This document shows positions 390 through 18,800 of a stretch of 20,996 nucleotides of DNA, in pieces (position 1 is the stretch's first letter; every line of letters starts with the position of its first letter). The position numbers and the translations under genes were made by a program. The notes beneath the pieces are model-generated. The model was given only the letters and a program-made list of their open reading frames with translations, had not been told where the DNA came from and ran no database searches. Origin of the DNA: a virus. The stretch spans positions 1-20,996 of IMG/VR virus record IMGVR_UViG_3300023082_000042; one strand, 5' to 3'.

Positions 390-1919
390 TCATTCTCCTT
401 GGAGTTTCGCCAGGAACCGACCGAACCAGCCGCGCGTCCGGCGCCGCAGCTCGCACGAAGTCAGGATGCCGATGTTGAAGGTGGTGCGGCAGCGCTCCAT
501 GGCGCTCACCCACTGGTGGCGGGCATCGCCGTTGTCCAGCGCGCTCTGGGCCTTCTGGGTGAGGTTCAGCAGATCGTCCTCGAAGCGGTAGCGCATCGCG
601 GTCGGGGAGAGCAGCGGGAGGTTTTCCACGTCCTTCTCCCAGCACATCATCAGGTACGCGCCGGCATCGATGATGTTGCCGCCCACGCTGTGGCGGTGGT
701 AGCGGTTCACCAGGTCGTAGGCGTCGGCCTCGCGCCAGCCCTTGTAGCCCAGCTCGCCCTTGGCCCGCATGCGCGCTTTGATCGCCGCTGCGAAGCGGTC
801 CACGCTGGCGGAGTCCTGTTGGACTTCCAGCTCACCGTGTCGGTAGCTGCGCGTGGCCGGCTGGGCGCGGCGGGCATCGTCGGTCACTTGACGCAGGTGC
901 TCCAAGTCCTTCTCATCCGTGAACGGGAACATGCCGATGCTCGCCAGCTGGTCTGGAGAGAGCTGTTCAACGATCCACTGAAGGCGCGCGGTGTCTTCGA
1001 TCTCACTGCGCGGATCGTAGGCAATCACGACTGCTGCGCACGGACCTTCGTGGCCCTTGGCGCGCGTGCAGCTCCAGCCGATGGGTGTCTTGCTGACGCC
1101 GCACTGCCCCGGCTCTGGGCCGTACTCCCGATCCAGCTTGATGGCTCGCTGGTTGTAGTCGAAGTGGTTGCGCTCGCCAACATCGTTGAGGGTGCCGTCC
1201 TCCGGCTCGGCCATGGTGAGGGTGCTGGTGGCGCGGTCTTCAGGCCCAGTCTGCTCCTCCACGCCGGTGAAGACATACGTCAAGGCGTCGGCCGGACCCT
1301 CGCCAAAGTTCATGAGCCAGCTGTTGCGGCCTTCGTGCGTGCGGGGGAGCTGACGGATGAGACCCTCAGCCCACTTGACGCGGTCGTGGCCGCTCTGGAC
1401 TTCGGCCGGAGTCAGCCCGATCACCGGCATGCTCGACTGGTGAGCCTCCACGCACGTCTCCATTAGCTGCGCCAGCGCCTGGGTGTTCCACTCCAAGCCT
1501 GCGGTCGGCTTCGTCTCCTCGCCGCAGTGAGGGCACTTCGTGTCCTCGATCACGTTGATGTAGCAGCCCTCCAGCGCTTCAGCGAAGATGCCGGCCTCAT
1601 ACTCAGTCGGCTTCTCGAAGGGGCGCATGGTCACGAGGTTGTCCACGTTGTAGCCCTTGGCGCGGAGCCAGGCCAACTGGATCATCCAGCCTTCACTGGC
1701 GAGCGCTGCGGCGAACTGAACGCGCAGACGCTGCCCGTTGGGGATAGCCTCATCCAAGGCGGAGGTCGCCAGGTCCATCGCGGACCCGCCCACGGCGTAG
1801 TCGATCACCCCGTCAAGCGGGGTTGCGTTCATCGTCGGCTTCTCGCGCTGGTTGAGGACCATCTGCGCCGTGAGGTGCTTGAGGTTCGCCAGTTTCAGGT
1901 CTTGTTTCGTGTCGGTCAT
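390..1919 (-). CDS. Composite phage protein of unknown function, 509 aa, with cysteine clusters
   Basis: Second gene of the leftward operon, 29 bases after the helicase gene. I chose ATG at 1919 because TTGGAG lies eight bases upstream; a TTG at 1952 overlapping the helicase stop would add 11 residues. The protein looks assembled from modules: an N-terminal mostly helical part; a CPHC knuckle at 129-132; a second cysteine cluster at C273, C284 and C294 (CTRAKGHEGPC, a pattern I recall from other phage proteins); a helical module at about 373-430 containing GWREADAYDLVNRYHRH and DAGAYLMMCWEKD, resembling a short block I recall from many phage hypotheticals; and a basic C-terminus. No catalytic motif is evident. 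Zinc binding and a role with the replication helicase are inference. Confidence 0.75.
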   Translation of the reverse strand: MTDTKQDLKLANLKHLTAQMVLNQREKPTMNATPLDGVIDYAVGGSAMDLATSALDEAIPNGQRLRVQFAAALASEGWMIQLAWLRAKGYNVDNLVTMRPFEKPTEYEAGIFAEALEGCYINVIEDTKCPHCGEETKPTAGLEWNTQALAQLMETCVEAHQSSMPVIGLTPAEVQSGHDRVKWAEGLIRQLPRTHEGRNSWLMNFGEGPADALTYVFTGVEEQTGPEDRATSTLTMAEPEDGTLNDVGERNHFDYNQRAIKLDREYGPEPGQCGVSKTPIGWSCTRAKGHEGPCAAVVIAYDPRSEIEDTARLQWIVEQLSPDQLASIGMFPFTDEKDLEHLRQVTDDARRAQPATRSYRHGELEVQQDSASVDRFAAAIKARMRAKGELGYKGWREADAYDLVNRYHRHSVGGNIIDAGAYLMMCWEKDVENLPLLSPTAMRYRFEDDLLNLTQKAQSALDNGDARHQWVSAMERCRTTFNIGILTSCELRRRTRGWFGRFLAKLQGE

Positions 1920-1948
1920 TGTCGGTGCTCCAAGTGTTACGCCTGATG

Positions 1949-4048
1949 TCAAAACTTCTTACCTACAGGCTTGGCGGTAAGGTCGGGGTGATGCTCGATG
2001 TAGTGGTCACAAGCCTCTTTCCAGGCGCAGTGGTCCCACTTGTCGGTGTTGCGCACGGAGTACGCGGTGATCTGTTTGCCGTCTGGCATACGCAGCTTGT
2101 TGCCGGTCGCTGGTGACGAGAATCCGGCGCGCTTCAGCTCCCGCGCGAGTGCGTTGGCTGAGGCTCGCTTGTCGCCGTGCGGATCGAACAGCATGTGGAG
2201 CTCAGCGATGCTGAAGATGTCGCCCTTCATCTTGCCCTTGGCCAGAATCTGGTCGGTGTTCGTCTTCAGCTCGTGGACCCAAGCGCCCAGCTCGCTCTTG
2301 CCCAGCTCGATCATCTGCTGCTTGCCGACCGTGGAGGGGGCCGGGGCGTGCGGGTCGAAGCCCGTCATGTCGATGTGGAGGAGGTGGTGCCACAGTGCGG
2401 CCGTCCCGCTCGCGCTCTTCATCCAGTCCACGTACCAGCCGGTGTTCTTGAGCTTGCCGGCGCGGACCTCGTGGACAAAGAACCGCCTGTCCTCATCGTC
2501 CATGAACAGGGCGTCCGGGTCGTTGGACGTGTAGTAGTAGTTGATACAATCCTCAATCACGTAGCTGGGGATGTACTTGGGGTTCATCCGCATCGAGTAC
2601 TGAGTGATCATCGTCATCAGCTTCCGCATGAACTTGCGGTCGCCTCGCGCCGTGATGTCGTCGGCCAGCACGAACTGCTGATTCTCCGCCCACTCAAAGC
2701 GCGCGTCCTCCAGGTCCGCGTCCTTCAGCTCCGTGGAGTGCTTGTTGCCGTAGATGCGCCGCAGCATAGCGCCCATCAGCGTCTTCCCGGAGCCGTGGAC
2801 CGGCCCCCAGATCGCACACGCCACGTGCATCTTGCCGCCTGGGTTCTGTAGCGGCCAAGCGGCCCACTGCTCGAAGTACCTGCGCGCGGCGTGGTCGTCG
2901 GCAAAGATGTGGTCCAGCAGGCTCACCCACGGGTCAATGTTGCCCTCCTCCGGCTCCGGGACTCCCCAGCCTGTCCAGCTGTTGAGCTTGCCCAGCTCCG
3001 TGATACGGTCCTGGCCGGGAGCGAACGACACGCCGGGGACTTCCGCCCGGTGCTCCCACTCCAGCCACGCCTTGGCCGCTGAGACCTTGGTGAGCGTCTC
3101 GTTGCCCTTCTTGTCCACGCGCTTCTCGAAGTAGTGGAGGTTGCTGAAGGCGTGCTCCTTGAACGCGGACGGCGCCATGCGCATGCGTGTGGAGTGATCC
3201 CAGATCAGGCCGGGGTCGCGCACGTACAACACGCGCTCATTTAGCTTGTGGAGAGCTGCGCTTGCGTCGTACTCGAAGGCAGTGTCCAGCACCTGCGAGC
3301 GGAGGGAGTCCACGCCGTGAGCCACGATGTAGTCGTCCAGCCCGACCTTGGGCGCCAAGGACTCCTCGCCCTCCTCGCTGGCGCTGTGGTCCGGTACGGG
3401 GATGCGGCAGATGAAGACCACCGCGCCCTTCTCCACAAGGCGTTGAGCAAGCCGGGACTCTGCATTCACCACGTCCGGGTTCGTCGCGCCGTCGCTGTCG
3501 TAACAGATGAAGACGGTGCGCCCCTCCCAGTCGAAGTCTGCGAAGCCCTTCACGATTGCCTCGCCTCTGGGCTTGCTCTGGAACGACCAGACACCGCCCA
3601 GGCCGATAGTCGGGATGCCGTGCTTGGTGGCGCACGCCGCCTTCAGCTCGCCTTCCGTGATGAGCACCGGCACCTCCGGGTCGGCCGCGATGCCTTCCCA
3701 CTTCACCAGTGGCGGCAGGTACAGCTCCACGGTGGAGTCCTTGGGCTGCGCGTACCTGAGCGCCTTCACCTTCGCCGCCGCTTGGAAGCCCTTGCGGGTG
3801 TCCTCCATGTAGCGGAAACGGAAGAACCTGAGCGGCTTGCCCTTCAGGTCGAAGTATGGAATGAGAAACCCCGCCTTGGTGGCGGGGAGTTTGAGTGCCT
3901 TGGCCTCTTCAGCCGTGTAGGGTCTGGTCTGTAACGCCTTGGCGTCCTTCAGGTCCAGCGCACTGCCTTCTAACTTGCGGATCATCGCCTCACGCACTTG
4001 CGCGGACGTCATGGGGGTCTTTGTCTTCGATGTCGGGGCCGTGGCCAT
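1949..4048 (-). CDS. Phage DNA primase-helicase (Toprim-like DUF3854 plus D5/DUF5906-type helicase), 699 aa
   Basis: Probably the phage replicative helicase, possibly with primase activity, acting at the replication fork in the cytoplasm. An N-terminal Toprim-like part shows VLITEGELKAA at about 128-138 (acidic residue E132) and ICYDSD at 181-186, the two conserved blocks expected of a DUF3854/Toprim domain. The C-terminal superfamily 3-like ATPase has Walker A GPVHGSGKT at 415-423, Walker B FVLADDI at 459-465 and the segment TSNDPDALFMDDEDRRFF at about 507-524, typical of the D5/DUF5906 group. ATG at 4048 has ATGGAG upstream. It is the first gene of the leftward operon, divergent from the virion genes across a 1 kb repeat-rich gap. 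Primase activity is a family inference; the helicase call is firm. Confidence 0.9.
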   Translation of the reverse strand: MATAPTSKTKTPMTSAQVREAMIRKLEGSALDLKDAKALQTRPYTAEEAKALKLPATKAGFLIPYFDLKGKPLRFFRFRYMEDTRKGFQAAAKVKALRYAQPKDSTVELYLPPLVKWEGIAADPEVPVLITEGELKAACATKHGIPTIGLGGVWSFQSKPRGEAIVKGFADFDWEGRTVFICYDSDGATNPDVVNAESRLAQRLVEKGAVVFICRIPVPDHSASEEGEESLAPKVGLDDYIVAHGVDSLRSQVLDTAFEYDASAALHKLNERVLYVRDPGLIWDHSTRMRMAPSAFKEHAFSNLHYFEKRVDKKGNETLTKVSAAKAWLEWEHRAEVPGVSFAPGQDRITELGKLNSWTGWGVPEPEEGNIDPWVSLLDHIFADDHAARRYFEQWAAWPLQNPGGKMHVACAIWGPVHGSGKTLMGAMLRRIYGNKHSTELKDADLEDARFEWAENQQFVLADDITARGDRKFMRKLMTMITQYSMRMNPKYIPSYVIEDCINYYYTSNDPDALFMDDEDRRFFVHEVRAGKLKNTGWYVDWMKSASGTAALWHHLLHIDMTGFDPHAPAPSTVGKQQMIELGKSELGAWVHELKTNTDQILAKGKMKGDIFSIAELHMLFDPHGDKRASANALARELKRAGFSSPATGNKLRMPDGKQITAYSVRNTDKWDHCAWKEACDHYIEHHPDLTAKPVGKKF

Positions 4049-4217
4049 TGTCGCTCCATAGATGTGTACGAGTCATCTGGCGTTACGCACCAGCTTGACA
4101 AGGTCGCTAACCCCGGGCTGCAGGCAGAGTGGTGTGATGGAGCCGACAAGCAAACCACGACCACCTCGCCCGCCGTAACTCAGGTGCCTGAAGCCCGGGG
4201 CGCGACGCGGACCGAAC

Positions 4218-4246
4218 TATATACGACCGCTTTTGTGTTGCTTTAA
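4218..4246 (-). promoter_or_regulatory. Possible promoter for the leftward replication operon
   Basis: Read on the minus strand, TTAAAG (complement of 4241-4246) is followed after 17 bases by TATATA (4218-4223). The -35 box matches the sigma70 consensus at three of six positions and the -10 box at four of six. The site would give a leader of about 160 bases before the helicase start at 4048. It is the best AT-rich candidate close to that gene but weak on its own. Confidence 0.25.
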
Positions 4247-4488
4247 GGTGTCAGCCGCCTTCGCCGGCAGTCAACGGCCGCTCTTGATACTACACCTTTG
4301 ATTGCGTAGCATCGAGGGACCGGAAAATTTGAGACCACTCAACGGTTGCGCCACGGTGTACGCCGTTGTACAGATTGACCGCCACCCGCTCGCCCCGTGT
4401 CTGGGCTTGCTGAGCGATGTCGGCCCGCCCCGTTCCTGAGCCTTCTGCGTCTCTGGGCTCCTTCGTGTCTTCGGTGCTGAGAAATGGC

Positions 4489-4792
4489 GGGAACTGCTAC
4501 AAGTGTATGCTGTAGTGGCGGGTGACTTTCTCTCAACGATCTGCTGAGAGTTAAGAAAAGTGAGCTCTCAAAGGAGAACTGAGGAGCTGTCTAGAACTGA
4601 ATTTGACGTTGAGAATCGTGGCCCGACTGGCCTTCCGGCAGGGTCAGTTCTCGGTTCTTCTAGTTCTTCACGCTCGCGCACCTTTCTCCCCACTATCTAT
4701 TACTAACTTTTCTTCCCTAAACAAAGGGGAAAAGAGGAACTAAAGAACTGAGTGCGGAGAGCGTGTACCCGCCACAGTTTACAGCAGTTCCC
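4489..4792. repeat. Imperfect inverted repeat with arms about 35 and 26 bases
   Basis: The left arm (4489-4523) contains GGGAACTGCT at 4489-4498, GCTGTA at 4509-4514 and GTGGCGGGT at 4515-4523. The right arm (4767-4792) read on the minus strand gives GGGAACTGCT, then GTA, AACT and GTGGCGGGT. The arms therefore share the same blocks in the same order with different internal spacing, and are about 240 bases apart. The -35 box of the rightward promoter candidate lies inside the right arm. Confidence 0.6.
4530..4550. repeat. Short inverted repeat CTCTCA-N9-TGAGAG
   Basis: CTCTCA at 4530-4535 is the reverse complement of TGAGAG at 4545-4550, with nine bases between. The left half extended, CTCTCAACG (4530-4538), is also the reverse complement of CGTTGAGAG at 4923-4931, and CGTTGAGA recurs at about 4607-4614. 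CTCAACG is also at 4338-4344. It could be an operator half-site pair; no T-run follows it, so it is not a terminator. Confidence 0.4.
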
Positions 4793-4956
4793 CATTTTTA
4801 AATAATGAAGAACTCCTTGGTATTTATCGAGAACTAAGCCCCATCGCTCATATGAGCACTTTTGCTGTACCTTGCCGGAGGTGTGACGGGGCCACGATCC
4901 TGAGCAATTCTTGATTTCCCGGCGTTGAGAGCGTTTTTCACCGAATGGAGAACTAA
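4573..4956. repeat. Array of AGAACT-type sites in both orientations
   Basis: Exact AGAACT occurs on the plus strand at 4575, 4593, 4744, 4809, 4830 and 4949, and as AGTTCT (minus strand) at 4646 and 4662. Near matches are GGAACT at 4736 and 4490 and AGTTCC at 4786. Six of the eight exact copies are followed by purine-A, giving a consensus close to AGAACTRA. By simple one-in-4096 arithmetic only about 0.2 copies would be expected in this length. The sites are irregularly spaced, so they look more like binding sites for a phage regulator or replication initiator than strict iterons. Confidence 0.7.
4778..4806 (+). promoter_or_regulatory. Sigma70-like promoter pointing toward the virion genes
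   Basis: TTTACA at 4778-4783 matches the -35 consensus at five of six positions. After exactly 17 bases, AATAAT at 4801-4806 matches the -10 consensus at five of six. Transcription would start near 4813 and run about 290 bases before the first gene of the packaging operon. AGTTCC (4786) lies in the spacer and AGAACT (4809) over the predicted start, so a protein bound to the repeat array could control it. Confidence 0.45.
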
Positions 4957-5101
4957 CCTTATCCAAACGTAACTCAGCCTAGAACACGCAGAAGCTGAGC
5001 GCCTGTACCCTTCGCTGCTGTCGCCAATTTCACCTGCCAGGACGCTCAGTTTGCTTGGTCGCTGCGTGGCTCAGGAGCCAGCCGATAGAATCGCGCGCAC
5101 T

Positions 5102-5533
5102 ATGGCAAGCAAACCTCCCTCCAGGTCAGCCCTTCCGCGCGCTCCACGCAGCTCGCTGAAGGCCACGGACGTTCCTGGCGTCTACAAGAACCGCGCCGGC
5201 CTGACGGTCGATGAGAACGGCGTGGCCCTCAGCTTCAAGTCGATCAAGCAGAAGGACGATGCCCGCTTCACTGAGGTGCTGGGCAAGTCCGCTGACACGC
5301 CGCTGGACATCCTCGAAGGTGTCGCCCGTGATCCTCGCTATCCGATGCACGTGCGGATGGATGCCGCCAACAAGGCTGCGCCGTATCGCCACGCCAAGCG
5401 GGTCGCCATCCAGGGCGTCGATGGTGCGCCACCTATCAACATGGGCCTCGAAGGCTTGCCCAAGGCGAAGCTCGATGAGTACGAAGCCTTGCTGAAGCAG
5501 GCTCTGGCCGTCGCCAGCGGGGTTGCTAAGTGA
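5102..5533 (+). CDS. Putative terminase small subunit, 143 aa
   Basis: First gene of the rightward operon. A small terminase would recognise viral DNA and hand it to the large subunit for packaging. The protein begins MASKPPSRSALPRAPRSSLK and has a basic, Pro/Ser-rich N-terminus. A central segment (DTPLDILEGVARDP followed by VRMDAANKAAPYRH) resembles the short helical block seen in many phage small-terminase or pre-terminase proteins. I used ATG at 5102 although no good ribosome binding site precedes it; an in-frame TTG at 5051 with AGGA eight bases upstream would add 17 residues. The call rests mainly on size and position three genes before the large terminase, so it is moderate. Confidence 0.55.
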   Translation: MASKPPSRSALPRAPRSSLKATDVPGVYKNRAGLTVDENGVALSFKSIKQKDDARFTEVLGKSADTPLDILEGVARDPRYPMHVRMDAANKAAPYRHAKRVAIQGVDGAPPINMGLEGLPKAKLDEYEALLKQALAVASGVAK

Positions 5534-5936: not shown

Positions 5937-7471
5937 GGGGCGGTCGCAAGGCGGATGTCGCCACCGTGCCGCTCAACCCCGCCCAGCTCCTCCAACGCCT
6001 CGAAGGCGTCAAGGCGGAGCAAGCCAAGCGCTCACTACACCGCTTCTTCACTGACTTCGCTTGGCCTGTCCTTCAGCCAGGCACTCAGTACGTGGACAAC
6101 TGGCATGTCCACGCTATCTGCGAGCACTTGGAGGCTGTGAGCCTGGGTCAGATCAAGCGCCTGCTCATCAACCTGCCCTTCCGCATGTTGAAGTCCACCA
6201 TCATTTCGCAGGCGTGGCCTGCCTGGGAGTGGATCGAGCGCCCGTCACTCCAGTACCTGACCGCCTCCTACGCCAAGGACGTGGCCACCCGGGATGCTGT
6301 GGACTCCCGGCGCATCATCGAGAGCGAAGCCTATCAGCGCTGCTGGGGTGACAAGTACCGCATGACGTCAGACCAGAACGTCAAGACCCGGTATGAGAAC
6401 AACCACAAGGGCTCCCGGATCGTCACCGCCACGGACGCAGCGGGCACGGGCTTCGGTGGCAACCGCATCGTGGTGGACGATCCTGTGTCAGCCCTGGAGG
6501 CCGACTCAGTTGTCAAGCTGGCCACGTCCATCGAGTGGTGGAAGGGCACGGCATCCACGCGCCTGAACAACCCAGAAAGCGACGCCATCGTGGTGGTCCA
6601 TCAGCGCTTGGCTCAAGGCGACCTCACAGGCTACATCCTTGAGCATGAGATGGGCGCATCGATGGGCTGGGAACACCTCGTGCTGCCCATGCGCTACGAC
6701 AAGGCACTCACGAAGACCACGTCACTGGGCTTCGTGGACCCTCGCAAGAAGCAAGGCGAGCTGCTGTCGCCTGCCCGGCTGTCTGAGCCCACCGTGGTTG
6801 AGATGGAAAACCGCTTGGGCAAGTACCACACAGCCGCTCAGCTCCAACAGAACCCAGGAAGCCGGGAGGGCACGCTGTTCAAGGCCAAGGACTGGCGCTA
6901 CTACCATGCCCCGCCTGCTCAGCTCTTCAGCCAGATGGAGGAGATCATTTGGAGCTGGGACTGCTCGTTCAAGGACGGCTTGGGCAACGACCCGGTGAGC
7001 GGGCTTTGTATCGGCCGGCGCGGTGCCGACAAATACCTGCTTGCCCGGGTCAACGACACCATGGGCTTCAGCAAGACCAAGACCGCCATCCAGAACTCAG
7101 CAGCCATGCTGCCATTCAAGCGCAAGCTGATCGCAGTGCTCATCGAGGACAAGGCCAACGGCCCAGCCGTCATCGACGCCTTGGAGCACGAAGTGGCTGC
7201 GCTCACCCCGATCACGCCACAGGGCGGCAAGGTGGTGCGCGCCAACGCTGTCCAGCCCCAACACGAGGCCGGAAACTTCTACTTGCCCAGCCCCACCCTT
7301 CCAGGGTATGAGTGGGTGATCGACTTCGTGGACGTGTTCACCAAGTTCCCAGGCGTACCCCACGACGATGACGTGGATGCCTGGACGCAAGGTGTCAATT
7401 GGTTCCAGACCCGTGAAAACGACAAACCCAAGTCCCCAACTCCTGCCTCCGGTGGCGGGCGAACAATGTAA
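5933..7471 (+). CDS. terL: Terminase large subunit (packaging ATPase and nuclease), 512 aa
   Basis: Motor that drives DNA into the prohead and cuts it. The N-terminal ATPase shows a deviant Walker A, NLPFRMLKST at 80-89, with a phage-style lysine-serine-threonine end instead of the classic GKS/T. Walker B is RIVVDD at 178-183, followed by GTAS and a coupling-like segment at HQRLAQGD (223-230). The C-terminal RNase H-like nuclease has acidic positions in IWSWDCSF (D343), IEDKANGP (E405, D406) and HDDDVDAW (about 477-484). Length is normal for the family. ATG at 5933 has GGGAG seven bases upstream and overlaps the previous stop. It is followed 12 bases later by the portal gene, the usual order. 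Confidence 0.93.
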   Translation: MRGGRKADVATVPLNPAQLLQRLEGVKAEQAKRSLHRFFTDFAWPVLQPGTQYVDNWHVHAICEHLEAVSLGQIKRLLINLPFRMLKSTIISQAWPAWEWIERPSLQYLTASYAKDVATRDAVDSRRIIESEAYQRCWGDKYRMTSDQNVKTRYENNHKGSRIVTATDAAGTGFGGNRIVVDDPVSALEADSVVKLATSIEWWKGTASTRLNNPESDAIVVVHQRLAQGDLTGYILEHEMGASMGWEHLVLPMRYDKALTKTTSLGFVDPRKKQGELLSPARLSEPTVVEMENRLGKYHTAAQLQQNPGSREGTLFKAKDWRYYHAPPAQLFSQMEEIIWSWDCSFKDGLGNDPVSGLCIGRRGADKYLLARVNDTMGFSKTKTAIQNSAAMLPFKRKLIAVLIEDKANGPAVIDALEHEVAALTPITPQGGKVVRANAVQPQHEAGNFYLPSPTLPGYEWVIDFVDVFTKFPGVPHDDDVDAWTQGVNWFQTRENDKPKSPTPASGGGRTM

Positions 7472-7483
7472 CTCAGGATCGCA

Positions 7484-9121
7484 ATGAAGCTCTCACACAT
7501 CGCCAACGGTGTCACCACGTTCCTCCGGGACTTCGGTGCGCCCAAGAACACTTCTGTTGCGGTCGGCCAGCCGCTCGCCAACCCGGGGTCGCTCAGCACG
7601 CCCTTGGCAGCGCAGCTCTACGATGAGCAGGCCACTGACCTCTTGGTCCAGATGCTCACCAAGATGCCTGACCTGGAGGACACGCTGCGCCAAGCGGGCA
7701 TCCAGCGCTACAAGCTCAGGGTCTTGCTCACTGACGACGAAATCAGCCAAGTGTGCGAGACGCGCCGGGACGCGCTGCTGGCCACCCCCGTTCACTTGGA
7801 GCCCGGGGATACGGAGCAGTCGAAGCGCCTCATGGAGCTGCTTCAGCCGCACATGGCGGGCCTCGTGGCCACGGTGTTCAAGGCGCGGCTGTTCGGCTAC
7901 AGCGTCATTGAAGCCGTGTATGCCCAGACCGACAAGGGCGACATTGGCTTCGCCTTCCTGGGTGAGAAGCCCATGCAGTGGTTCGAGCCCAAGAGCGACG
8001 GCAAGCTGATATTCTACCCCAACGATGGCCGCAGCTCAGGGTACGGCCTGGAGGTGGACCAGGAGTACAAGTTTTTCTGCACCCGCAACATGCCCACGTA
8101 TGAGATGCCCTACGGCGAGGCGATCTTGGCCAAGCTGTACTGGCCCTGGTTCTTTCGCACCAATGGCTGGAAGTTCTGGGGCAAGTTCCTGGAGCGCTTC
8201 GGCACTCCGCTGTTGGTGGGCAACTCCTCCGACCCGACCGCCATGGTCAAGGCGCTGCTCATGGCGCACAGCAACGCAGTCGTGGGCATCGGACCTGACG
8301 ACAAGGTCGCAGCAGTTGGCGCCGCTCAGGGCGCAGGCACTGTGTTCGCTGACTTCGAGGCCGCATCGCTGCGGCGCATCCAGAAAGTCGTGCTGGGCCA
8401 GACCCTGACGAGTGGCACGGACGGCGGCTCAGGCAACCGCGCCCTGGGGCAGGTACACGAGCTGGTACGCATGGACAAGCGCAACGCCGACATCATGATG
8501 GCCACGGCGACCCTCCAGCGGGTTGTCGACGCTCTGTGTAAGGTGAACAGCTGGGCTCCCGTGAAGGTCTGGTTCGCAGACGACCAGGGGCTGGAGAGCG
8601 ACCGGGCTGAGCGTGACAGCAAGCTGTACACCCAAGGGGTGCGCTTCACACCGGACTACTACCAAGACAACTACGATTTACGTGCCACGGACTTTGAGAT
8701 GGCAAGCGAAGCCGCACCTGAAGGCGAAACTCCGCCAGCCCTCCCGGGCGCACCAGCTAAGGGGGCCAAGGTCGGCCAGCCTCCTGCCAAGAGTGGTGCG
8801 AAGAAGGACAGTGCGGTCAAGGCAAGCCAACTCCCGGGGCATCTTTTCTCCCAGCTGCCAGGTGGACGCAAGAAGTTCACCAAGCAGCAACAGCAGGTGG
8901 AGGACCAGGCTGACGCGGGGCTGGAGGAGGCTGGGTTGCCCCTGGACCTGGACGCGATCCGCACCGCCATCACTGCCGCCACGTCACCTGAAGACCTGGA
9001 GGACCGCTTGTTTGCCCTCATCGGCGACCAAGTAGCCCAGGAGGACTTCGTGGAGGTGTTGGAGCGCGCGCTGTTCGCAGCAGACGTGCTGGGCTACGTC
9101 CACGCCGAAGGGAAGGTGTGA
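7484..9121 (+). CDS. Portal protein, DUF935 (Mu gp29-like) family, 545 aa
   Basis: Forms the dodecameric ring at the head vertex through which DNA enters and leaves. Length and features agree with the DUF935/Mu gp29-like portals: an early segment with DLLVQMLTKMPDL and VCETRRDALLATP, a core with ARLFGYSVIEAVYA, then YEMPYGEAILAKLYWPWFFR and FLERFGTPLLVG in the clip and stem region, and the later RVVDALCKVNSWAPVKVWF. The C-terminal 140 residues are linker-rich (Pro, Ala, Lys) then helical, as is usual in this family. AGGA lies upstream of ATG 7484. Its neighbours are the large terminase before it and a Mu F-like protein after it, as in Mu-like phages. Confidence 0.92.
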   Translation: MKLSHIANGVTTFLRDFGAPKNTSVAVGQPLANPGSLSTPLAAQLYDEQATDLLVQMLTKMPDLEDTLRQAGIQRYKLRVLLTDDEISQVCETRRDALLATPVHLEPGDTEQSKRLMELLQPHMAGLVATVFKARLFGYSVIEAVYAQTDKGDIGFAFLGEKPMQWFEPKSDGKLIFYPNDGRSSGYGLEVDQEYKFFCTRNMPTYEMPYGEAILAKLYWPWFFRTNGWKFWGKFLERFGTPLLVGNSSDPTAMVKALLMAHSNAVVGIGPDDKVAAVGAAQGAGTVFADFEAASLRRIQKVVLGQTLTSGTDGGSGNRALGQVHELVRMDKRNADIMMATATLQRVVDALCKVNSWAPVKVWFADDQGLESDRAERDSKLYTQGVRFTPDYYQDNYDLRATDFEMASEAAPEGETPPALPGAPAKGAKVGQPPAKSGAKKDSAVKASQLPGHLFSQLPGGRKKFTKQQQQVEDQADAGLEEAGLPLDLDAIRTAITAATSPEDLEDRLFALIGDQVAQEDFVEVLERALFAADVLGYVHAEGKV

Positions 9122-15898: not shown

Positions 15899-18800
15899 AT
15901 TCTCAGTCGTGCTGGAGGCGGTCACGGCCGCTTTCAACAAGGCTGTCAAGGACTCCAAGGACAACTACACGTCCACCACCACGAGCATCGTCAACGACTC
16001 GAACAAGATGGCCCGCACAACGGAGGCTGTCGGCGCTGCGCTGGACAAGGTGTTCACCGCCACGGACGCGAAGGGCGTGACGACCGCCCTCCAAGGCGCC
16101 ACCAAGGAACTGAACAACACGAAGCAGGGCGCGACGCTCACCGGCCAAGAGCTGGGCAAGATCGGCCAAGCCGCCAAGCAGTCGGTCGGCATCCTGAACG
16201 GTGAGCTCAAGACGGCCCAAGCCGAGCTGAAGCTGCTCGCCGCCTCGAAGGCGACCCCGGCCGACCTGGACGCCGCCAAGGCCAAGGTCACGGCGCTGAA
16301 GACCGAAGTGGCCAACGCTCAGGCAGAGTTCGGCCGCTTTCAGACCGCAGCGAGCACGGCCATGCGACGCGCCGCAGCCGACACCGACACCGCGACGGCG
16401 AGCGCCAAGAAGGCGGGCAGCGCGATCTATGAGACGCTGAACATGAAGTCCGGTGGCTCGCTCAAGAGCGAGATTGCCGCGATCACGACGCAGCTGGCGA
16501 CCTTCCAAGCCAACGCCAAGGCGCCGGCTGAGGAGCTTCAGCGCGTCACGACTGCCGCCAAGGCTCGCATCGCAGAGCTGCGCGGTGAGATGGGCGGGAT
16601 CAAGCCTGCCGCCGACAACGCCGCCACCTCCCTGGCGAGCATCGGCAAGGCAGCAATCGGATTCGCCGGCATCACAGCCGGCTTCGCTGCGATCAAGGAG
16701 GGCATCCAGGCCGTGGTGGACACCACGATCAAGTTTGAAGCCGTCATGAAGCAGCTGGAGTTCGCCACGGGCTCCGCAGAGCGCGCCGGGGTTGAATTCG
16801 ACTTCGTGCGCAAGGTGGCGAAGGACTTGGGCCTGGAGTTGCTGTCCAGCGCCAACAGCTACGCCAAGCTGACGTCAGCCACGAAGGGCACCGCCCTCGA
16901 AGGCGAGGCCACCCGGCAGGTCTTCCTGGGCGTGGCGAGCGCAGCGGCCTCCCTGGGCCTGTCCGTGGACGACACCAACGGCGTCATGCTGGCCATCGCG
17001 CAGATCGCGTCCAAGGGCGTGGTGTCGATGGAAGAATTGCGCCAACAGCTGGGCGAGCGCTTGCCGCCAGCCATGGCCATCGCAGCCAAGTCGATGGGCG
17101 TCACGGTCGCGGAGCTGGGCAAGCTGGTTGAGAACGGCCTGGACAGCGTCACGTTCCTCAAGGCATTCGGTCCGGCGATGGTCGAAGCCTTCGGGCCGAC
17201 CGCCTCCAAGAACGCACAGAGCCTCCAGGGCTCGATCAACAACCTGAAGAACACCTTCAGCGAGCTGCTGATCAATCTCGGCAAGGGCGGCATCGGGCAA
17301 GGCGTCGCAACTGTCCTCCAGGACGTGGCCATGGGCGTCGGCACCATCCAGCTCGCCGTCAACAACCTGGACCCCTCCACGGTGGACGCGGTCAAGCTGG
17401 TGTTCGAGCAGCTGTATGGCGTGATCACCACGACCTTCGGCGGGCTCATGTCGGCCATCGCGGACGCCGCCCGGGTACTCGACACGCTGGCTGACGGTGT
17501 AGTCGGCATCGTAGGCGCGTTCACCGGCATCGACACAGCGTCTGACAAGGTGAGCTTCCTGACGCGTGTCCTGCAAGGCGTAGGCATCATCCTGGGCACG
17601 ATTCAGGACGGTATCAGCGCCCTGTCCATCGCTTTCACGGTCGTCGCAGGCATTTCCCAGCAGTGGATCGGCGGTTTGGCGCTCGCCCTGAGCAAGCTCA
17701 CCTTCGGGCAGCTCAGCAAAGACCTGCAGCAGCTCGGCACCGACTTGCAGCGATCGGCCACCGATTCGTTCAAGAAGGCGGAGGATCAGGCGCTTTCCTT
17801 CCGTTCCGCAGCCGTCGCGGCACTAGATCGTGCGGCGGAGGCAGGCGAATCGGGAAGTGCAAGGGTGGGTGCAGCCGCGACCGCTGCGGCAGGCGTAACC
17901 AACTCAGCCTTCGGGAAGGTCGGCTCAGACGTCAAGATGACGTTCCAGCAGATCGAAGCCGCAGCGACCGCCGCAGGCAACATCATCAAGCTGAGCACGG
18001 TCCAAGGCGCAGAGGCGACGCTGGGGCTGGCCAAGGCGGGCAACGAGGTCCGCGACGTGTTCACGAACTTGAGCAAGGACATCGGCGTGTCCCTGCCGCC
18101 GTCCATCAAGACGGTCGCCCAGTTGGGCGCGGTGTTCGGCGAGATCGCGGTCAAGAGCAAGGCGACTGCGGCGCTCATCGCCAAGGAGCTGCCGGAGGCC
18201 ATCGGCAAGCTGAACGGTCCTGAGCTCCAACAGTTCCAGACAGCCTTCATCGGCGGGCTGACCAAGGCGGGTGCTTCGGCGGAGTACGTCCAGAAGGCGC
18301 TGCTGGACATCGCTTCGGCCGGCGCGAAGGCGCTTGGGGTAGACCTGACCGCCTCCCTCACGCGCACGTCGCAGGCGTTCAACGACAACCGGGTCACGCT
18401 CGATGCGTTCGTGAAGGACTTCGACCGCCTCAAGGCGAGCGGGGTCAACGCCAGCCTGCTCATTCAGCAGTCCCTCGAAGCGATGCTGGCCAAGGCGAAC
18501 AACCCGGCAGAGCTGAACGCGCTGATTGCGTCCTTCCAACAGCTCGGCAAGGAGGGCAAGATCAGCGGCGACGCAATGACGGAGGGCATCACCAAGGCCA
18601 AGGCGAAGCTGGATGAGCTCACGCCCGGCATCAACTCGTTGGCTGAAGCCTTCAAGACCTTCGGCATGAAGAGCCGGGAGGAGGCGACCGCCACTGCCGC
18701 CAAGTACCAAGAAGCCTTCAAGGTCATGAAGGACAGCGGCCAATCGACCACTGCCGAGCTGCGCACCGCCTTCACCACCTATGCGCAAGCGGCGGTCGAT

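Follow-up and report, generated by a model that had tools for sequence, protein, structure and literature searches.

The alpha protein of P4 binds the repeats of its origin through a winged helix, and unwinding and priming follow (PMC4234260). Origins of phage-inducible chromosomal islands (PICIs) consist of an AT-rich region flanked by two sets of iterons (PMC6092414), and in the staphylococcal cassette chromosome mec (SCCmec) the D5-family helicase Cch2 binds direct repeats that adjoin its own gene (PMC7581432). The PrimPol of phage NrS-1 primes at an 8-nt site (PMC8718748), and the NrS-1 genome has two such recognition sites only (PMC7102993). Here we analyze an array of AGAACT repeats in the IMG/VR virus record IMGVR_UViG_3300023082_000042, a genome fragment of 20,996 bp that was analyzed in its entirety and is referred to below as the window. 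The window contains a real and statistically strong iteron array, which is probably a replication origin of the P4/PICI type, bound by the adjacent primase-helicase via a predicted C-terminal winged helix. Most likely, it represents a known general kind of origin in a new setting.

The array resembles the P4 and PICI origins in that its repeats cluster above chance in both orientations (8 exact copies, 0/3000 shuffles), lie on both sides of an AT-rich region, and adjoin a gene for a primase and SF3 (D5-like) helicase. Element-specific iterons are shared with the rep-ori regions of PICIs and Staphylococcus aureus pathogenicity islands (SaPIs), and a D5-family helicase gene next to repeats is also found at the SCCmec Cch2 origin; the latter differs from the window array, however, in having three iterons only, a separate polymerase-primase and another gene order. 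The window differs from P4 in the repeat sequence and in being derived from a tailed phage that encodes packaging functions of its own, and no second cis region (crr) was seen in the fragment. An earlier, sequence-only reading of this locus knew of no described phage control element with this motif, which holds for the exact motif but not for the kind, since iteron origins bound by a primase-helicase are known from P4 and PICIs.

The AGAACT array of the window

Eight exact copies of AGAACT are found within positions 4575-4954, six forward (4575, 4593, 4744, 4809, 4830 and 4949) and two reverse (4646 and 4662), so that our recount agrees with the sequence-only reading, which had reported this number in less than 400 bases together with near matches. 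In 3000 dinucleotide shuffles of positions 4573-4956 the hexamer appeared about 0.38 times on average and at most 4 times; the expectation given earlier was about 0.2 copies. The density was not reproduced by shuffling the intergenic region (4049-5101) either, where none of the 3000 dinucleotide shuffles had eight copies (maximum 4). Considering any hexamer, shuffles contained no more than 6 copies per 384 bp (3000 shuffles each of 4049-5101 and 4573-4956), as compared to the 8 copies of AGAACT. Across the whole window AGAACT occurs 14 times against 6.3 expected, the top of 100 shuffles being 13.

Motif discovery on positions 4049-5101, with no preset motif, retrieved aTcnAGAACTgnn, which scored 41.9 as compared to a maximum of 27.8 among 12 shuffles, and pointed to a possible further site at 4486 on the plus strand. 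A position weight matrix built on the eight sites added near matches at 4732 (plus), 4782 (minus) and 4902 (minus), so that with near matches included the array comprises, on the two strands together, about 11 sites of ATNNAGAACTNA. Lower-scoring matrix matches are scattered through the rest of the window, and the signal therefore lies in the cluster and not in the individual sites.

The array is located between the minus-strand primase gene on its left and the plus-strand operon of the terminase small and large subunits (TerS and TerL) on its right, in a region with 48% GC (4501-5000) as compared to about 63% overall. This matches the earlier description of an AT-rich section between the replication and packaging operons. 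The 40 bp with the lowest GC content in the whole fragment (4794-4833, 25% GC) fall within the array, with 8 sites on one side of their centre and 3 on the other. The features of the array are as follows.

4571-4958, no strand: iteron array, about 11 sites of ATNNAGAACTNA, proposed replication origin (counts, motif discovery, shuffles, weight matrix)
4571-4584, plus: iteron AAGGAGAACTGAGG (weight matrix)
4589-4602, plus: iteron GTCTAGAACTGAAT (weight matrix)
4642-4655, minus: iteron ACCGAGAACTGACC (weight matrix)
4658-4671, minus: iteron GTGAAGAACTAGAA (weight matrix)
4732-4745, plus: near-match iteron AAGAGGAACTAAAG, overlapping the iteron at 4740 (weight matrix)
4740-4753, plus: iteron CTAAAGAACTGAGT (weight matrix)
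4782-4795, minus: near-match iteron ATGGGGAACTGCTG (motif discovery, weight matrix)
4805-4818, plus: iteron ATGAAGAACTCCTT (weight matrix)
4826-4839, plus: iteron ATCGAGAACTAAGC, top score (weight matrix)
4902-4915, minus: near-match iteron ATCAAGAATTGCTC (motif discovery, weight matrix)
4945-4958, plus: iteron ATGGAGAACTAACC (weight matrix)
4794-4833, no strand: candidate DNA unwinding element (the 40 bp with the lowest GC content in the record, sites on both sides)
4778-4806, plus: sigma-70-like promoter candidate for the packaging operon, TTTACA-17-AATAAT, overlapped by two iterons (consensus match only)

No second AGAACT cluster was seen in the fragment, which is an incomplete genome, and an exact DnaA box is absent from 4049-5101, the closest sequence being TTATCCAAA at 4959, with one mismatch.

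The overlap with a promoter candidate, which the sequence-only reading had also reported and which we find again, together with the divergent arrangement of the two operons, raises the alternative that a transcription regulator of the phage or its host binds the array as a multi-site operator for both operons; in one relative (L060) the replication operon encodes a sigma-like factor. Nevertheless, about 11 irregularly spaced sites over nearly 400 bp around an AT-rich core would be unusual for an operator, and no regulator gene was identified beside the window array. The gene common to array carriers is the primase, which is the first gene beside the array in several lineages (the window, L053, L056, L057 and L088). 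We therefore consider an operator unlikely.

Short repeats in both orientations within AT-rich DNA are also characteristic of the arm-type sites bound by integrases, and the array could accordingly be viewed as a phage attachment site (attP). However, no integrase gene adjoins the array in the fragment, its neighbours being primase and terminase, and the arrays of relatives adjoin the same replication genes, which leaves this explanation with scarcely any credibility.

Arrays in related phages

The sequence-only reading had proposed conservation in related phages as a check. The exact hexamer is not conserved, the AGAACT array being absent from TerL relatives (71-77% identity), but the array as a feature recurs with diverged motifs. 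In phages that encode a homologous DUF3854-DUF5906 primase-helicase, the corresponding place is often occupied by an array with a motif of its own, ATTNGGGTACT being among these motifs. Such primase relatives were found by an alignment-based scan, a single-sequence scan having found none, and a nucleotide search of the phage collection yielded no matches.

Array carriers among the primase homologues are L045, L046, L052, L053, L056, L060, L067, L068, L088 and L090. Among the TerL relatives, the motif is AGAAGCCGA in L017 and L045 (with GAAGCCGA present 8 times against a shuffle maximum of 3), and weaker arrays are found in L047/L048 (AACTTCAC) and L015/L016 (AACTTTG). In primase relatives at a greater distance, the motif is GGGGAACT in L046, AATGTGAACC in L052 and L053, GCAAAACA in L056 and L067, CTACACATT in L060 and L088, CCGAAACA in L068 and CAACATAT in L090. 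The closest phage by TerL (L008, 77%) has its own array, AGTACCC, with the primase off the contig. Judged by their sequences, the motifs of the window, L008 and L046 (ATnGAGAACT, ATTnGGGTACT and AATGGGGAACT, respectively) look like diverged forms of one iteron.

The arrays of the relatives came from an exploratory search, and were compared with 64 control windows taken from the same contigs. The excess over the shuffle mean had a median of 15.5 score units in the arrays and 3.4 in the controls, and exceeded 8 units in 8/16 arrays versus 2/64 controls. In the close pair L015/L016, conservation within motifs was 0.91 as compared to 0.75 in the background.

The arrangement around an AT-rich core also recurs. 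In 12/16 loci (the window included; loci whose array makes up 1-5% of the locus), the lowest-GC 40 bp of the locus fall in the array, and a core flanked by sites on both sides was found in the window and also in each of the seven relatives tested whose array is not cut by a contig end. In the eighth relative tested, L088, the second set of sites lies at the opposite contig end. Copies of the array are thus present at either end of the L088 contig, and TerS and TerL lie at that opposite end, an arrangement that would result from cutting a circular genome within the array. A 34,686-bp contig from a Chromatiales metagenome-assembled genome (JALTPW010000176.1; L123, positions 1-180, and the end of L124) likewise carries the same iteron array at both ends, which suggests that it is a complete circular phage genome cut within the array.

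Several candidates were set aside. In L054, L058, L071 and L083, the motif-discovery matches overlap sequence that is called as coding or is likely to be so. The repeats of L069 (4374-4457, TACCTTCACATAG six times) and L070 (3537-3715, ACCTACCTC at intervals of ~16-28 bp), which lie 3.5-4.4 kb upstream of the primase, were excluded as tandem repeats that are not clearly of the same kind as the iterons. A degenerate 8-mer scan was dropped, being misled by palindromes and by a composition inflated by the arrays themselves, as was a k-mer rank test on whole contigs, in which the codon bias of coding windows acted as a confounder.

Other repeats were observed in these loci. Upstream of a primase operon in L090 (4599-4810), direct repeats of CAACATATN are packed very densely, with a spacing of about 11-12 bp. 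The close pair L047 (5028-5810) and L048 (6656-7440) has conserved intergenic blocks resembling inverted repeats, such as AACGCAATTGCGTT and TCTACAACAAAAACACCTTGTAGGA, apart from the iterons, and L048 has a short tandem cluster of AAGCCTGC at 16039-16221, distant from the primase.

The protein proposed to bind the array

The genes that bear on the identity of the binding protein are the following.

1949-4048, minus: primase-helicase, DUF3854 (TOPRIM-like), DUF5906 (D5-like helicase) and predicted C-terminal winged helix, proposed initiator (domain and homology matches, model)
1952-2368, minus: primase residues 561-699 (C-terminal region), predicted winged helix (structure model)
5102-5533, plus: TerS, neighbour, not favoured as binder (homology)

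The primase-helicase is a 699-amino-acid protein that matches phage DNA primases. To the right of the array, TerS is followed by TerL, portal, Mu-like head genes, the major head protein and the tape measure. A 520-amino-acid protein with only a weak PHROG match is encoded downstream of the primase (390-1952, minus strand) with a 4-base overlap with the primase end, and a relative of it also follows the primase in L046 (10369-11475).

Across loci, the array follows the replication genes and not the terminase. This bears on the alternative that the array is a packaging initiation site (pac or cos-type) bound by the adjacent TerS, as might be supposed from TerS being the next gene on the right and from the array separating the TerS side from the replication side in most relatives. 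Other phages are known to have TerS-binding repeats close to terS. However, the repeat does not co-segregate with TerS: L060 and L088 have iteron CTACACATT in common and primases that are 47% identical, whereas their TerS and TerL show no detectable relation beyond very short segments. These two phages also have other genes in common that follow the primase, among them one for a DNA polymerase. Conversely, TerS is about 50% identical among the window, L045, L046 and L047, yet their iterons differ. Array carriers have several unrelated TerS families, and in L068 about 2.3 kb, including an endolysin gene, separates the array from TerS. The TerS model gave no match to a DNA-binding fold, but is too poor to judge. 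A packaging site is therefore improbable, and of the binders named by the sequence-only reading (regulator, replication initiator or packaging protein) the replication initiator is the best supported and the packaging protein is disfavoured. In L060, the gene immediately preceding the primase in the replication operon codes for a sigma-factor-like protein (phrog_351; 6781-7722).

The C-terminus of the primase was modelled as a winged helix with a mean pLDDT of 80. Structural comparison of this model gave Z scores of 4.8-4.9 over 77 residues to the C-terminal domain of the NrS-1 primase-helicase, and middling scores to many winged helices; the matches listed did not include the origin-binding domain of P4. 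A Foldseek search with the model found no significant match, and a profile search of solved structures returned calmodulin-like noise only.

The NrS-1 primase-helicase is also the nearest solved relative of the window protein, with the closest solved helicase domain by sequence. It primes at an 8-nt site (PMC8718748), and the repeats might by analogy be sequence-specific priming sites for the primase, comparable to the NrS-1 PrimPol template TTTGGTTA, rather than sites of double-stranded origin recognition. This is very unlikely, as the NrS-1 genome has only two such sites (PMC7102993), and recognition there resides in a PrimPol/HBD module while the window protein has a DUF3854 TOPRIM-like primase.

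A proposed iteron-type origin and its implications

Returning to an iteron-type origin as the preferred interpretation, the primase-helicase would bind the ~12-bp iterons, probably through its C-terminal winged-helix domain, and assemble into hexamers on the repeats that flank the AT-rich core (4794-4833) on either side. It would then melt this core, load itself as helicase and prime synthesis, as P4 alpha and PICI/SaPI Rep do. We infer primase binding, melting and origin function alike. Through the promoter overlap the initiator may, more speculatively, also affect transcription of the packaging operon.

Several observations weigh against this interpretation. The PICI origin lies immediately 3' of rep, whereas the window array is 5' of the primase, between the replication and packaging operons, and in L045, L060 and L087 the primase is 3-4 kb away from the array. 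The GC-skew profile, proposed by the sequence-only reading as a check for an origin, has no clean switch at the array, the profile being confounded by divergent transcription. No clear array was found beside the primase in the named isolates AXL3, PW916 and ctUtU524, whose primases are more distant (36-41% identical), nor in contigs L062, L073, L091 and L092. Many coding control windows also exceed their own shuffles, and motif conservation in L047/L048 equals the background (0.76 versus 0.76). Finally, the presumed recognition helix (ASxNALARELKRAGF) is far more conserved than the iterons, and specificity would therefore have to lie elsewhere.

It is possible, though we put this forward tentatively, that these arrays represent a widespread undescribed class of tailed-phage origins located between the replication and packaging operons, whose iterons change wholesale among close relatives (TerL 70-77%) while the presumed recognition helix stays nearly constant. 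In such a class, specificity would reside in a different region of the initiator, one that evolves under diversifying selection, for instance towards incompatibility of the origins of co-infecting phages. If the interpretation as an origin is right, it would provide a simple rule for finding origins in many uncultivated tailed phages whose primases are of the DUF3854-DUF5906 type, namely to look beside the replication operon for the iteron array that surrounds the most AT-rich spot. It would also provide a natural series of diverged iteron-initiator pairs, from which one may learn how primase-helicases read DNA and why origins diversify.
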